Source: Methanoculleus sp. MH98A (GTDB taxonomy: Archaea > Halobacteriota > Methanomicrobia > Methanomicrobiales > Methanoculleaceae). From it: a stretch of 64,000 nucleotides of DNA. The notes under the pieces are model-generated. The model made no database searches, was not told where the DNA came from, and saw only the letters and a program-made list of their open reading frames with translations. Where the stretch lies: the NCBI RefSeq assembly GCF_000691865.1, contig NZ_JMIO01000033.1, positions 1 through 64,000 on the forward strand, given 5' to 3'. The position numbers and the translations under genes are program-made. The first letter of the stretch is position 1. Each line of letters starts with the position of its first letter. Positions 5,846 through 12,196 of this stretch are shown in pieces.

Positions 5846-6643
5846 TCAGGCGGCGGCCCTGCGCAGTATCTTCTGCATGCTGTTGTACGGCACAAAGAGG
5901 TGCTCCACCTCTCTTGCCAGGTACTCGGTCTTGCCCATGATATAGTAGCCGTCGACGGCAAGCGCAGAGTAAAAAAGATGGGTAAGGTCGTTCTTCTGCT
6001 TCTCGGTAAAGTAGATGGTGACGTTGCGGCAGGTGACGGCGTCGAGGTACCGGGCGATGGGGACGCCCGACATCAGGTCGTGCTCCCGGAATTTAACCAG
6101 GCTTTTGATATGAGGGCGAATCTCGAACGTGCCGTCATCGTGGCTGATGAAGTGCTTGCGGAGTCTCTTCTCGTCGACGTTCTCAAGCGCCTTTCTGTCG
6201 TAAACTCCGGCGATGGCTTTCTGCAGCACCACGGTATCGATATCGGTCGCGTATATCGTTACGGTGACGTTTTTATGGAGAGTCATCAATTCGTGCGCGA
6301 GGATGGCGAGTGAGTAGGGTTCTTCACCCGTGGCGCAGCCGGCGCACCAGATCCGGATTGATTCTCTGCGGCGGGCGAGATCAGGCAGTATCTCCCGGCG
6401 TATCACTTCGAAGACCTCCGGGTCGCGGAAAAATTTTGTGACGTTGATGGTGAGGGCGTTCCTGAGCAGATCGAGTTCCTGCGGATTCGCGAGGAGGTAC
6501 CTGTGATACGCCTCAAAATCTGTGGTGTTTGTCAGGCGCATCCGGGAGAGGATACGCCGCTTGATGTAATCTTCCTTGTAGTTCGAGCACTTGATCCGAA
6601 CCAGTCTCTCGATGCTTCTCTGGAGCGATGCGAATTCATCCAT
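5846..6643 (-). CDS. cheR: CheR chemotaxis protein methyltransferase
   Basis: 265 residues, normal CheR length. CheR transfers a methyl group from S-adenosylmethionine to glutamates of chemoreceptors. An all-helical N-terminal domain (about 1-75) is followed by the SAM-binding Rossmann domain with NVTKFFRDPEVF, the glycine motif WCAGCATGEEPYSLAI (about 97-112) and ATDIDTVVLQKA. It is the last gene of the minus-strand operon parA-like / receptor / cheW / cheR, 42 bases after cheW. No C-terminal pentapeptide tether was looked for beyond noting that CheR ends shortly after the catalytic domain. Confidence 0.93.
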   Translation of the reverse strand: MDEFASLQRSIERLVRIKCSNYKEDYIKRRILSRMRLTNTTDFEAYHRYLLANPQELDLLRNALTINVTKFFRDPEVFEVIRREILPDLARRRESIRIWCAGCATGEEPYSLAILAHELMTLHKNVTVTIYATDIDTVVLQKAIAGVYDRKALENVDEKRLRKHFISHDDGTFEIRPHIKSLVKFREHDLMSGVPIARYLDAVTCRNVTIYFTEKQKNDLTHLFYSALAVDGYYIMGKTEYLAREVEHLFVPYNSMQKILRRAAA

Positions 6644-6685
6644 GGAACAGTTTACTCATGCCGGGTGCTGGTTTACGGAAGCGAT

Positions 6686-7165
6686 CTAGTGGTTTCCGAG
6701 ATCGCTGCCGAGATCGCCGATTACTTTCTGGACGTCGAGCCAGATGATGAGGGTCTTTGCCTTCTCGTCCTCTTCGTCTCCTATTTTGATGATTGCCTTG
6801 ACATAACTGCTGATAGACGATGTGATACCGTCACTGATGCGTTCGATCTGGTCGTTCCGGACCGATACGACGCTGTGAACGTCGTCGACGATGATCCCTA
6901 CGTTCGACCCGTTCGTCACGTCCGGCATCAGCACGACGATCTTTCGGTTCTCGGACTCCTCCGATCCGGGGAGCCCGAGCAGATCGCGGAGGTCGATGAT
7001 GTTCGTGATCTCGCCTCGCAGGTTGATGATGCCTGTAAGGTATTCGGGGGCACGGGGAAGGGGAGTGATCGGCATCATCTCCACGATCTCTCGTGCTATC
7101 TGGATGTCCAATGCGTAGTGCTCCTCCCCGAGCTGGAACTCCACCACGTCTACGGATGCTGCCAT
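6686..7165 (-). CDS. cheW: CheW chemotaxis coupling protein
   Basis: 159 residues. CheW couples receptors to the CheA kinase. Typical CheW elements are visible: VEFQLGEEHYALDI near the start, the region MPITPLPRAPEYLTGIINLRGEI split across about 33-55, and GIIVDDVHSVVSV about 92-104. It begins 10 bases after the receptor stop, in the same operon. No cheA, cheB or cheY is in the window, so the kinase partner must be encoded elsewhere. Confidence 0.93.
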   Translation of the reverse strand: MAASVDVVEFQLGEEHYALDIQIAREIVEMMPITPLPRAPEYLTGIINLRGEITNIIDLRDLLGLPGSEESENRKIVVLMPDVTNGSNVGIIVDDVHSVVSVRNDQIERISDGITSSISSYVKAIIKIGDEEDEKAKTLIIWLDVQKVIGDLGSDLGNH

Positions 7166-7175
7166 CGTTTCCTCC

Positions 7176-10100
7176 CTAGTTCAGCTTGAACTGCATCATT
7201 ACCTTCTTGAGCTGTTCGGCCATGCTTGCCAGTTCGTGGGATGCGCTTCCGACCTCCTCGGTCGATGCGCTGACCTCTTCGGCGAGTGCCGCCATATCCT
7301 CGGTGCGGTCCAGGCTCTCCTTGGTCATGTGGGTGGACTCGTCCATCTTCTGCATGACGTTGTTGGTGGAGCCCGCCTGGTCTTCGGTGGCCTTGGTGAT
7401 CTCGCTGATGCCGCGGGTGACCACCTCCACGCTGTCGACGATCCGGTTTAAGCCCACGATGACTTTGTCGACACTCTCAAGGCCGGCCTGGATCTCCTGG
7501 TGGGATGCCTGCATCGAGTCGGTGGTCTTTTCAGTGCTTGCCTGGATCGTCCGGATCAGGTCCTCGATATCCTGGCTCGCCCGCTTGGATTCTCCGGCAA
7601 GGTTTCTGATCTCGCCGGCGACCACGGCGAACCCGCGGCCGTGCTCCCCGGCACGGGCGGCCTCGATCGCGGCGTTCAGCGCGAGGAGGTTGGTCTGGTT
7701 CGCGATGTCGGCGATCAACTTGACGATGTTGTTGATCTCCCGCATCTGGTTGTTGAGGGTGCTGATCTCCCCCACGGTCTGCTTGGAGATCTCCTCGACG
7801 AGCTGCATCTTCTTCGTCGCGACTTCACCGAGCGTTGCCGCCTCGTTTCCTTCCTTGGAAGCCTTCGAGGCCTGCTCCATGACCGACTGCGACGTGCTTG
7901 CAATCTCCTCGATGGATGCCGAGAGGTCGTTGATATCCATCCCGATCTCTTCGATCTTCTCAAGCTGGCGGCGTGCGTCCTCGGACGACTGCTGCGTCGA
8001 GACGGCGACCTGCTCCGTCGCCCGGATGATCTCGTCGGTGCTCTTGCTGACCTCCTTCGTCGTCATGTCCACCTGCTGAGCGGCTTTCGCCACGTCGGCG
8101 AGAAGCGCGCGGATAGCGGTCAACGAGGCGTTGTAGTCGGTCTTGACTTCCCCGAGAGGATCGTCGGTTTCCGATTCCACGAACGCCGTCAGGTCGCCCT
8201 TTGCCATGGCGGCAAGCGCGTTCCCGAGTTCCCCGGCGCTCTCTCCAAGCCTCTCGCTCTCCCGCTTCGCGGTCTCCATCAGGTCGCGGATCTGGTCCTC
8301 CCTCTCCCGCTGCTCGGTCCAGTCGTTCCAGACGTAGAAGGCCAGCTCGATCTCGCCGTTCCGGTCGAGGATGGGGATGGCGTTTAAGGTGAGGTACTTC
8401 CTGACGCCGTCGGGCCACTTGACCATGACGTCCGTCCGGGCGAGTTTCTTCGTCTCGTAGCAGGCGTAGAAGTGGTCGCCCTCAAGGATGGTGATATCGT
8501 AGTCGTAGAGCTTCTTCGCGAGGGTCTCTTCGCGGGTGCCGCGCCACATCCGGGCGTACTCGTCGTTGATGTCGATCCGGCTCTTGTCCGCGCGGAGCGT
8601 CGCGATTGCGAGCGGGTTCTGCTGGATCATTGCGTCGACCCGGTGCTCGGTATCCTTGACCTCCTCCTCCTTCGCCTTGAGGTCGGTCCAGTCGTTCCAG
8701 ACGTAGAAGGCCATCTCGATCTCGCCGTTTGCATCGAGGATGGGGATGGCATTCAGGGTGAGGTATTTCCTGACACCGTCGGGCCACTTGACCATGACGT
8801 CCGTCCGGGCGGGTTTCTTCGTCTCGTAGCAGGCGTAGAAGTGCTCGCCGTCGATGACCGTGATGTCGTAGTCGTAGAGTTTCTTTGCAAGCGTCTCTTC
8901 GCGGGTGCCGCGCCACATCCGGGCGTACTCGTCGTTGATGTCGATCCGGCTCTTGTCCGCGCGGAGCGTCGCGATTGCGAGCGGGTTCTGCTGGATCATC
9001 GTGTCGACGCTGTGCTTGAGTTTCTCGGCTTCTTCTTTCTCTACCTGCAGGTCGGTCCAGTCGTTCCAGACGTAGAAGGCCATCTCAATCTCGCCGTTTG
9101 CATCGAGGATGGGGATGGCGTTGAGGGTGAGGTACTTCCTGACGCCGTCGGGCCACTTGACCATGACGTCCGTCTGTGCCCGCTTCTTCGTCTCGTAGCA
9201 GGCGTAGAAGTGGTCGCCGCCGATGACGGTGATGTCGTAGTCGTAAAGCTTCTTCGCGAGGGTCTCTTCGCGGGTGCCGCGCCACATCCGGGCATACTCG
9301 TCGTTGATGTCGATCCTGCTCTTGTCCGGGCGGAGGAGCGCGATGGCAAGCGGGTTCTGCTGGATCATCGTGTCGATGCGATGCTGCATCCTCCGGATCT
9401 CGTCTTCCTCTTTGCGCTTTTCGGTGACGTCGTTATAGACGTTCAGGATCCCTGTCAGCTCGTTCTTCTCGTTCAGGAGCGGGATTCCGTGCTGTTCCAG
9501 GATGTAGGTGCCGGAGGGGAACTCGACCGTCACTTCGCCGGAAACTCGCATCTTCTCGGTGAGCACTTTCTTGATCCCGTCTCCTTTCTGATTGAGGACC
9601 TTGAAGTCTCGCAGGGTCATCGAGGTGATGCGCGACTGATCGATGCCGGTCAGTTCGAGGTATGCTTCGTTGGCCGTGACGATCTTCAGCTCGGTATCGA
9701 CGACCAGGATGGGCATCGGGTTTTTCTGGATGATCGTCTCGGATCGACGCTGCAGTTCGGCGATTTTCTCCAGCTGGATCTGGATCTTTTCCTCTTCCTC
9801 CCGCTGCCTGGTGAGATCGTTATAGACGATGAGGATGCTCTCGACCGCATTCTCGTTGTCGAGCAGCGGGATGCCGTACTGCTCGAGGATATGGGTGCCC
9901 GAAGGCAGTTCGACGACGACCTCGGCATATACACGCTCCTTCCCCCGGATCGCCTGCCGGAGGCCCGAACCCTTCTGTGATGTGATCTTAAAGTCTCTCA
10001 GGCTCCTGCCGAGCACCTGATCCATCGGGATCCCGCTCATCTCGGCGTAGGCCGTATTTGCCATGGTCACCTTGAAGTCCGGGTTGACGACCAGGATGGG

Positions 10101-10412
10101 CATCGGGTTCTCCTGAATGATCGTATCGGATCCCTTCAGAAGCATCCTGGCCTCGTCCAGCCGGTGCTTGAGGCGCTGCTTCTCCTCCTGCTTCTTCTCG
10201 AGCAGCGCGTTGATCGAGGTGGCCAGCGGCCGGTAACTCTCCGGAACGCCGGCAAGGTCGATCTGCACGGAGTTGTCGCCGTCGATTCCTGCATGGAGTG
10301 CGGCCTCGATCGCTTCGGGGAGTACCGCTGCTCTCTGCTCCTGTGCCTGTCCTGTCATACCCGGCACGACCGGCCCGGTAAATAGTGCTTTCCTTCCAGG
10401 TTTCTCGTTCAT
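7176..10412 (-). CDS. cytoplasmic methyl-accepting chemotaxis protein with five PAS domains
   Basis: 1078 residues with no transmembrane segment and no signal peptide, so a soluble receptor. After an N-terminal helical region (1-90) come two related PAS domains (about 95-210 and 215-335), then three almost identical PAS units (about 345-460, 468-583, 591-706), a HAMP-like linker (about 715-770) and the long MCP signalling coiled coil (about 775-1070) with the conserved tip [20 protein letters not shown] near residue 935. PAS domains can hold haem, flavin or metabolites; the ligand here is unknown. It begins 3 bases after the ParA-like gene and is followed by cheW, so all four genes form one transcription unit. 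Confidence 0.92.
8322..9368 (-). repeat. three tandem near-identical PAS-coding units, period 369 bp
   Basis: The same DNA landmark (GTCGTTCCAGACGTAGAAG on the plus strand) starts at 8322, 8691 and 9060, and the opposite landmark GCTGGATCAT ends at 8630, 8999 and 9368. The spacing is exactly 369 bp (123 codons) both times. Each unit encodes a PAS domain with [19 protein letters not shown] and [17 protein letters not shown]. The units differ at a modest number of positions, for instance ALLRPDKS against ATLRADKS. This points to recent in-frame tandem duplication or ongoing gene conversion. Confidence 0.93.
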
Positions 10413-10415
10413 CTA

Positions 10416-11297
10416 TTACACCTCTTCATTATGCTTCCTGTCCTGCCCGGTGAGTGCAGTTGCTATCGCCCGGTATTTCCTGCCCGCGTCGCTCTCGGGT
10501 GCATAATGAGAGATTGGGAGGCCTTTTTGCTGTGTCTCGTAGATCACAGGAGAGTACGGGACCAGGAACACCTGTTTGAACGCTTTTTTTACCTCGGACT
10601 CAAACGCCTTCAGCCGCTCTCTTTCTTTCTCCTCTTCTGCGGATGAAGCGGGTGAGAAGATCCGCTTCAGGAAAAGTGCAAGCCCACCTGTTCCGGCCGC
10701 CGGGTTGCCCGACCCTTTCCAGCGGGTCAGGATGGCGAAGTCTGCAGCGACGTCTTCCCCGAGCATCTCCCTGATATCCCCAAAGACCGTAGAAAGGGCT
10801 TCCATGCCTTTCAGGGCGAACGTGCCGGAATCAAGGGTGACAACGGTGTGATCCGCTGCGACGAGCCCGTTGATGACAAACTGGCCCATGCTCGGAGGCG
10901 TGTCGATCAGGATGAAGTCGTAGGTGTCCCTCACCTGTGCGAGCGCACCCTTGAGCAGCCCTGCCCGGTTCTCGATACTGTAGAGATAGGGTTCAACCCC
11001 TACAAGATCCAGAGTTGCCGGAGCGAGGTGGATCCCCGAGGCCGTGGAGACGATCACATCGGTTATCCCGGCGTTGGGAAACCCTTCAAAGACGCTCATG
11101 AAGACGTCATACATGCTCAGTTCAAGGGTTGCGGGGTTGACCCCGAGCCCCGTGGTGGCATTGGCCTGCGGGTCGCAGTCTACGATCAGAACGCTCTTTC
11201 CATCTTTCTGGAGGTACCCAGCAACGTTGAGACATGATGTCGTCTTTCCTGTGCCACCTTTGTGGTGGGCGAACGCTATAACCGTGATATCCAGCAC
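10416..11297 (-). CDS. ParA/Soj-like ATPase, probable chemoreceptor-cluster positioning protein
   Basis: 293-residue ParA/MinD-superfamily ATPase. The deviant Walker A AHHKGGTGKTT (about 9-19), switch regions with DCDPQANAT and ILIDTPPSMG are intact. Archaeal ParA proteins usually segregate DNA with a ParB, but no parB or centromere-like repeats are adjacent. Instead it is first in an operon with a cytoplasmic receptor, cheW and cheR. By analogy with PpfA of Rhodobacter sphaeroides and ParC of Vibrio, which position chemoreceptor arrays, a cluster-partitioning role is inferred. The start is GTG at 11295-11297 with GAGGT eight bases upstream. TTTAATAATACTT at 11321-11333 is a likely TATA box. 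Confidence 0.85.
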   Translation of the reverse strand: MLDITVIAFAHHKGGTGKTTSCLNVAGYLQKDGKSVLIVDCDPQANATTGLGVNPATLELSMYDVFMSVFEGFPNAGITDVIVSTASGIHLAPATLDLVGVEPYLYSIENRAGLLKGALAQVRDTYDFILIDTPPSMGQFVINGLVAADHTVVTLDSGTFALKGMEALSTVFGDIREMLGEDVAADFAILTRWKGSGNPAAGTGGLALFLKRIFSPASSAEEEKERERLKAFESEVKKAFKQVFLVPYSPVIYETQQKGLPISHYAPESDAGRKYRAIATALTGQDRKHNEEV

Positions 11298-11320
11298 CCC
11301 TCAATACCTCTATTTGAAAT

Positions 11321-11333
11321 AAGTATTATTAAA
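11321..11333 (-). promoter_or_regulatory. TATA-box promoter of the chemosensory operon
   Basis: On the minus strand TTTAATAATACTT lies about 24-36 bases upstream of the GTG start of the ParA-like gene, the expected place for an archaeal TATA box. No other AT-rich box is seen between the four che-operon genes. Confidence 0.5.
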
Positions 11334-11515
11334 CCTACTTTTATGCTGCTATATGTATTCTGGTCGTCTGGCGTTTTTTCGAAATATTCTTTCGTCCAGG
11401 AAGGTGAATTGAAGGTTTTTTTGCCATTGTATCCATGGGGATCCGGAGGCGGAAATAGAGCGTCGCATAAGCCGATCGCTGCCGGAAGATTTGACGCATA
11501 ATGGAAAAACGAATT

Positions 11516-12196
11516 TTAACGAGGGAGATCGCCGTCGGTGGGGCATACAGCGGGTTTCCGGTCTCCGGGATCAATTGCGGCCCGGAGCCTCTGCACACGC
11601 TCTGAGATCGACGGCCGGTAGTCGGATTCGGAACGAAGAATTCCTGGGATCATGCCTTTACGGTGGGAGGACGACGCGCCGGCCAGTGGACAGGATAGGA
11701 GGTTCTGGAGGAGAACTCCGGGATCCCTGACCCGGTAGCAGCACCTCATTGCGTCGGCGGCGTACCGGTCGGCTACGAACTCTTCATCGCACATACGGTG
11801 GTAGTACGTCCGGTAGGCGAAGAAGGCGGTCAGGAGAAGGAGGGCGATGAAGACCGGCTTTGCAGCCGGAGACCCTCCCGCCTGCAGGGACGGGTGTCCG
11901 AGGAAGGCGAGGCAGAGGAGGATTGGGAGGGCCGGAAGGACTGAGAGAAAAGGTGAACCCTTCCTTACGTGTCCCTCTTCGTGGAGCAGCACAAACCGGA
12001 GCGTGTCGTCGCTTGCCCCCGAGAGGTTTCTCTCGTAGAATGAGTGCCGGTAGCGGATGCAGTTGAGCGCCGGGCATCCCCGCATGGAGACGGTGAGGGG
12101 GCATCTCACCAGCCTCCTCCTGCGGTCAATCAACCCCTTCTCCTGAAGTTCCCAAAATATCCGGTACAGGCGGGAATTGCGGTCGGCCTCACTCAT
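11516..12196 (-). CDS. M48-like membrane zinc metalloprotease
   Basis: 226 residues. The zinc-protease signature HEEGH is at residues 72-76, and DEEFVADRYA (about 137-146) supplies the third ligand Glu and the usual helper Asp of the M48 (HtpX/Ste24) family. Two hydrophobic segments (about 84-102 and 113-130) between the motifs suggest membrane insertion, as in HtpX. It is shorter than HtpX (about 290 residues), with an unusual Cys-containing N-terminus (RCPLTVSMRGCPALNC). A protein-quality-control role is inference. Transcribed alone; TTTAATATATACT at 12218-12230 lies about 22-34 bases before the ATG, suggesting a leaderless message. Confidence 0.75.
   Translation of the reverse strand: MSEADRNSRLYRIFWELQEKGLIDRRRRLVRCPLTVSMRGCPALNCIRYRHSFYERNLSGASDDTLRFVLLHEEGHVRKGSPFLSVLPALPILLCLAFLGHPSLQAGGSPAAKPVFIALLLLTAFFAYRTYYHRMCDEEFVADRYAADAMRCCYRVRDPGVLLQNLLSCPLAGASSSHRKGMIPGILRSESDYRPSISERVQRLRAAIDPGDRKPAVCPTDGDLPR

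Follow-up and report, generated by a model that had tools for sequence, protein, structure and literature searches.

Why should a gene for a ParA-type ATPase head an operon of chemotaxis genes in an archaeon? The question is raised by a 64,000-nucleotide stretch of Methanoculleus sp. MH98A (contig NZ_JMIO01000033.1, positions 1 to 64,000; here called the window), in which a tight minus-strand operon runs in the order parA, receptor, cheW, cheR (window 11297-5846). The parA gene (10416-11297, minus strand, GTG start) encodes a Soj/ParA-type deviant Walker A ATPase of 293 residues (Pfam AAA_31, 4.6e-46). A gap of 3 bases separates it from the gene (7176-10412, minus strand) for a cytoplasmic chemoreceptor of 1078 residues, in which Pfam, hydropathy and an AlphaFold model indicate five PAS domains and the signalling domain of a methyl-accepting chemotaxis protein (MCP). 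A preliminary description of this DNA had set out these four genes, the 3-base spacing and the lack of a parB, and had likened the ATPase to PpfA, which segregates a receptor cluster in Rhodobacter sphaeroides; the arrangement is as it said. We conclude, with a probability of roughly 80% as judged from sequence comparison, that the operon serves to assemble a soluble chemoreceptor array and to position it by means of ParA and of a short box at the N-terminus of the receptor.

Is the pairing peculiar to this genome? We surveyed 120 genomes of the order Methanomicrobiales, counting as this ParA any protein at 48% identity or more. It is present in 67 of them, at 68 loci, and all 68 loci sit among chemotaxis genes. 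The gene after parA encodes an MCP or, in a few loci, a PAS protein with CheW as its last domain, and cheW and/or cheR follow where the contig allows. With no exception among the 68 loci, this linkage is far beyond chance. Conservation of the pairing across Methanomicrobiales, which the preliminary description had put forward as a check, is thus borne out and extends outside the order; neither a linked parB, nor centromere repeats, nor loss of linkage was found. The main CheA is encoded in 66 of the 67 ParA genomes, the exception being 82% complete, while 29 genomes have neither ParA nor a main CheA (Fisher p about 3e-12 for the association, related genomes not being independent). Species of Methanoregula are among the ParA holders. 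The parA operon adjoins the main che cluster in one genus (g6, in our own designation) and in family f32, and one genome (G079) has two parA-receptor operons (L076 and L077), each with its own box-bearing receptor.

Might this ParA nevertheless partition a chromosome or plasmid, and lie beside chemotaxis genes by happenstance? Its Soj/ParA class would suit that role, as would the result of a genome search, in which the window parA gave the only strong AAA_31 match. Against it, the flanking genes scanned by parA contain no ParB domain, and no direct-repeat family lies beside parA in positions 11000-11700, so that parS-like repeats of a ParABS system were not encountered there. In every family parA is linked to receptor genes without exception, and on these grounds we rejected a partition role. 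Moreover, ParA is missing from the genomes without CheA bar one, the 82% complete genome, and the box occurs solely on receptors and CheW-ended proteins. Of the explanations considered here, happenstance is the least credible and carries very little weight.

What, then, might ParA hold? The candidate is a box at receptor residues 4-13 (10374-10403, minus strand, with GRKALF at 10380-10397), recognized by its conservation, by its tracking of parA and by its position within residues 1-29, which have very low AlphaFold confidence, as expected of a disordered tail. A ParB-like segment near the receptor N-terminus had been suggested before; the consensus that emerged is [KR]PGR[KRMQ]ALF, borne by the protein encoded after parA or by one encoded later in the operon. 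All 67 of the order's fully readable operons have it, each on a single protein (locus L093, cut by a contig end, was left out). Over 76 sequences, these 67 together with nine loci of a further family, f10, the residues G, R, A, L and F are without exception the same; the start of the box lies 4-15 residues past the nearest Met. In an alignment of 24 receptors (A2), P5, G6, R7, A9, L10 and F11 are invariant; the next invariant column is at residue 148. The carrier varies: PAS-MCP, second MCP, PAS-CheW protein (in six relatives), poly-HAMP MCP and sensorless MCP all bear the box. At five loci (L071, L074, L075, L079 and L080) the gene that bears it lies further along the operon and encodes a second MCP at four of them and a CheW-domain protein at the fifth. 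We also considered whether the box could arise by chance and rejected this: off-operon matches to its codon pattern in the 120 genomes appear at about the rate of the reversed pattern, and those inspected were chance frames, none of them the start of a chemotaxis protein.

If the box serves ParA, what becomes of it where ParA is missing? We sought the orthologous operon in genomes that have CheA and lack this ParA. The box is absent in 10 of 10 readable parA-less versions (nine MCPs and one CheW-ended protein), and the joint presence or absence of box and parA has a Fisher p of about 1e-12, uncorrected for kinship. The parA-less versions span several lineages (families f3 and f5, genera g22 and g29); within genus g29, one member (L036) has both parA and box and another (L220) has neither. 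In genome G047 a 739-residue CheW-ended protein precedes cheR (L239:9202-11421), resembling the box carriers and having neither box nor parA. Because it is almost invariant and appears and disappears together with ParA, the box is very probably the handle by which ParA holds and shares out the sensory array. The box could in principle be a structural or regulatory feature of the receptor unrelated to ParA, such as an array contact or a degradation signal, with the linkage of parA a separate matter; what ties box to ParA is their co-occurrence. But the box shifts among unrelated carriers and stays in the parA operon, on one protein each, and it is lost where the same operon lacks parA, the pair from genus g29 included. 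We consider this account improbable.

How would so short a segment act upon an ATPase? Bacterial ParBs encoded beside the chromosomal parA genes that we sampled have N-terminal boxes such as GLGRGLDALI and ALGKGLGALLP. In Myxococcus xanthus a pocket in the ParA dimer is bound by the ParB box, whose Arg13 drives hydrolysis of ATP (PMC12462528). The archaeal box resembles it in position and composition: the activating motif of ParB is also a short box of Gly-Arg/Lys and hydrophobic residues near the N-terminus, in a disordered tail, and its central Arg is needed for stimulation of the ATPase (PMC12462528). The carrier differs, since that of ParB is a centromere-binding CTPase and that of the archaea a receptor. 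Of the M. xanthus ParA residues singled out in that study, Tyr81, Asp110 and Gly151 are retained in the archaeal ParAs, the acidic residue at 82 is kept as Asp, and Met replaces Leu150. On the best reading of these sequences, the box would be a ParB-like docking and activation peptide with a specificity of its own, placed on an array rather than on a centromere. Behind another archaeal ParA, in family f9 (L251:7902-9036), comes a protein of 122 residues whose box, GKGIDALLP, is of the canonical ParB-like kind; these two may possibly form a small archaeal partition pair.

Where are the remaining parts of the array? The genome that carries the window (2.54 Mb, 306 contigs, 96% complete) has its main che genes on another contig, C26, in the order cheF-cheY-cheB-cheA-cheD (cheF by Pfam); CheA, CheB and CheY had been said to lie outside the window, and this is where they are. 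The C26 cluster has no receptor, CheW or CheR of its own; these components therefore come from the window operon. In the genome search, the cheW of the window (6686-7165, minus strand; PF01584, 2.3e-33) is the only stand-alone single-domain CheW found, and its cheR (5846-6643, minus strand; PF01739, 2.1e-54) the only CheR. There are two MCPs, the window receptor and a transmembrane MCP on contig C13, and several archaellins. Contig C13 holds a second, accessory chemosensory cluster (L042:10392-18940), with a double CheW, the transmembrane MCP, a CheA-receiver hybrid and two histidine kinases.

The receptor itself combines an MCP signalling domain (residues 862-1028, 7329-7829, minus strand; PF00015) with the lack of any membrane segment, as the preliminary description had held: its highest 19-residue hydropathy is 1.09, compared with 2.7-3.2 for the transmembrane MCPs of these genomes. 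The five PAS domains occupy residues about 102-718 (8259-10109, minus strand), placed by Pfam and by PAS start positions at residues 102, 231, 353, 476 and 599. PAS domains 3-5 (8259-9356) are three tandem copies, mutually 79-86% identical, and receptor lengths within the genus step by about 123 residues (709, 826, about 950 and 1078), as if PAS copies were gained and lost through recombination. Exactly one MCP, the ParA-linked one, was found in the single-contig genomes G004 and G040, and also in G010 and G019. Since some genomes thus have only the ParA-linked receptor, in species without any other the soluble array is probably the principal chemotaxis array for the archaellum and no side system.

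We infer the binding, the ATPase stimulation, the nucleoid binding and the localization as follows. Receptor and CheW, together with CheA from the other contig, would assemble a cytoplasmic array that signals to the archaellum through CheY and CheF, CheR adjusting the receptor. ATP-bound ParA dimers would occupy the nucleoid. The disordered N-terminus of the receptor, with its KPGRKALF, would dock on a ParA dimer and provoke ATP hydrolysis in the manner of the N-terminal ParB peptide, and the array would consequently be moved along the nucleoid, spread over it or split upon it, so that each daughter cell receives one. Some points weigh against this proposal. The archaeal GRKALF is two residues shorter than the GRGLxALL of ParB. 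In the archaeal ParAs, three ParB-contacting residues are replaced (E117 by Y, V116 by P and L152 by Q), and the replacements are family-conserved. Finally, ParA contains an internal LKRLF-like helix that may allow it to bind the membrane.

How far does the arrangement extend beyond the order? A search of the phylum revealed ParAs of 50-53% identity in family f10, followed by a box-starting protein where the contig allows. At one of these loci (L240) the box is on a poly-HAMP MCP, after which come CheW, another MCP, CheY and CheB. When the McrA of one f10 genome was compared with the PDB, 3sqg matched it along the full length with 1289 bits, the next entry scoring 669; as 3sqg is the enzyme of ANME-1 (anaerobic methanotrophic archaea, group 1), this family probably corresponds to ANME-1. 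In family f32, the gene after parA encodes an MCP that starts MADLTPVRRAGRKVLF and has no recognized sensor domain, inside a complete che operon. At L250:5769-6800 an MCP within a complete che operon seemingly consists of the ParA box and the signalling domain only. The ParAs of the receptor operons of the order, of f10 and of f32 form one clade apart from the other archaeal and bacterial ParAs sampled, PpfA not being among the sequences (Shimodaira-Hasegawa-like approximate likelihood ratio test, SH-aLRT, 100 in a quick tree; 89/92 for the corresponding split in a larger tree). On balance we lean, with less assurance than for the operon itself, towards a wider proposal. Methanomicrobiales and ANME-1 would share a dedicated array-positioning system with a portable, seven-residue ParA tag, retained even as its carrier was swapped among MCPs and CheW-ended adaptors and as the sensory part went from PAS to HAMP to nothing; in the several species whose sole receptor is soluble, the main archaellum-steering array would lie on the nucleoid and not at the membrane.

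Must ParA be seated on the nucleoid? Its KGGTGKT motif (residues 13-19, 11241-11261, minus strand), which carries the signature lysine and is conserved in all aligned relatives, fits the KGGxGKT of ParA/Soj-type Walker ATPases. The AlphaFold model (predicted local distance difference test, pLDDT, 84) finds its best PDB folds in Bacillus subtilis Soj and M. xanthus ParA (8.6e-22 to 8.5e-21); McdA ranks after these two, and the match to archaeal MinD is weaker (1.8e-14). The C-terminus, ALTGQDRKHNEEV, is polar, so that the C-terminal amphipathic membrane-targeting sequence of MinD is missing. A MinD-type identity is, with the fold nearer to Soj/ParA, the less likely assignment. A family-specific insert contains residues 206-214, LALFLKRIF (10656-10682, minus strand), modelled as a helix beside a low-confidence loop, and possibly a DNA- or membrane-binding element; an LKRLF-like helix recurs in this insert in different families of the order. 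The helix resembles the sequence by which MinD is targeted to the membrane, though the insert is internal. Judged from sequence, either the nucleoid or, via this helix, the membrane may be the seat of ParA.

A MinD-like variant is accordingly conceivable, in which ParA binds the membrane through LALFLKRIF and its relatives and tethers the soluble array at the membrane or the pole near the archaellum, the box still being its docking peptide. The recurrence of the LKRLF-type helix in many relatives and its likeness to the MinD sequence speak for this, and in Haloferax MinD2 and MinD4 put arrays and archaella at the poles (PMC11588486). On the other hand, the fold of ParA is nearer to Soj/ParA and to McdA than to MinD, the ParAs of ANME-1 are shorter over the insert yet keep the box, and by shuffling the maximum hydrophobic moment of the insert is significant in just 3 of 46 sequences. 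We regard membrane tethering as unlikely, though the most serious competitor to positioning on the nucleoid.

How does positioning by ParA and box compare with systems already described? In R. sphaeroides, PpfA segregates the cytoplasmic cluster via the N-terminus of TlpT (PMC3964821). There too a ParA homologue lies beside a soluble MCP in a che operon with no parB. The R. sphaeroides cluster is a second one, alongside a membrane array, whereas in some complete archaeal genomes the soluble receptor is the sole receptor. In Vibrio a comparable task falls to ParC and ParP (PMC7534058): the adaptor of this ParA-like ATPase enters the array by a CheW-like domain and binds the ATPase by its other end. 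The six relatives with the box on a PAS-CheW protein recall this arrangement; in the window, and for most archaeal boxes, the carrier is instead an MCP, and no LID-bearing CheA, HubP or polar anchor came to light, though no search aimed at them was made. The ATPases of Haloferax that affect array placement are of the ParA/MinD kind, MinD2 and MinD4 belonging to the MinD class and influencing archaella and cell shape as well, and the portions of that report available to us describe no receptor docking peptide (PMC11588486). Imaging of Methanoregula formicica has revealed arrays in the cytoplasm (Briegel 2015, as reported in PMC7534058). Genes like ppfA are common in che operons, in a data set that includes archaea such as Methanoregula boonei; the main text, in the portions available, does not mention an archaeal case, a box or its loss together with the ATPase gene (Hamer et al. 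2010, PMC2829493). A literature search of partial coverage turned up no account of either the archaeal box or the parA-receptor operon family. That ParA-like positioning of an array in an archaeon would be new, as first supposed, therefore needs qualifying: the PpfA-like interpretation gains support, and the Haloferax (PMC11588486) and M. formicica (PMC7534058) accounts show that the theme is not wholly new. What is new is the docking box, together with its portability between carriers and its loss along with parA.

With this operon the archaea would gain a ParA-type system for positioning cargo that has a defined and mutable docking peptide, so that the placement and inheritance of large protein machines become directly testable in them. 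It could account for how the cytoplasmic arrays of Methanoregula are held, and it suggests that the docking codes of ParA are rewired by shifting a short peptide from one protein to another.
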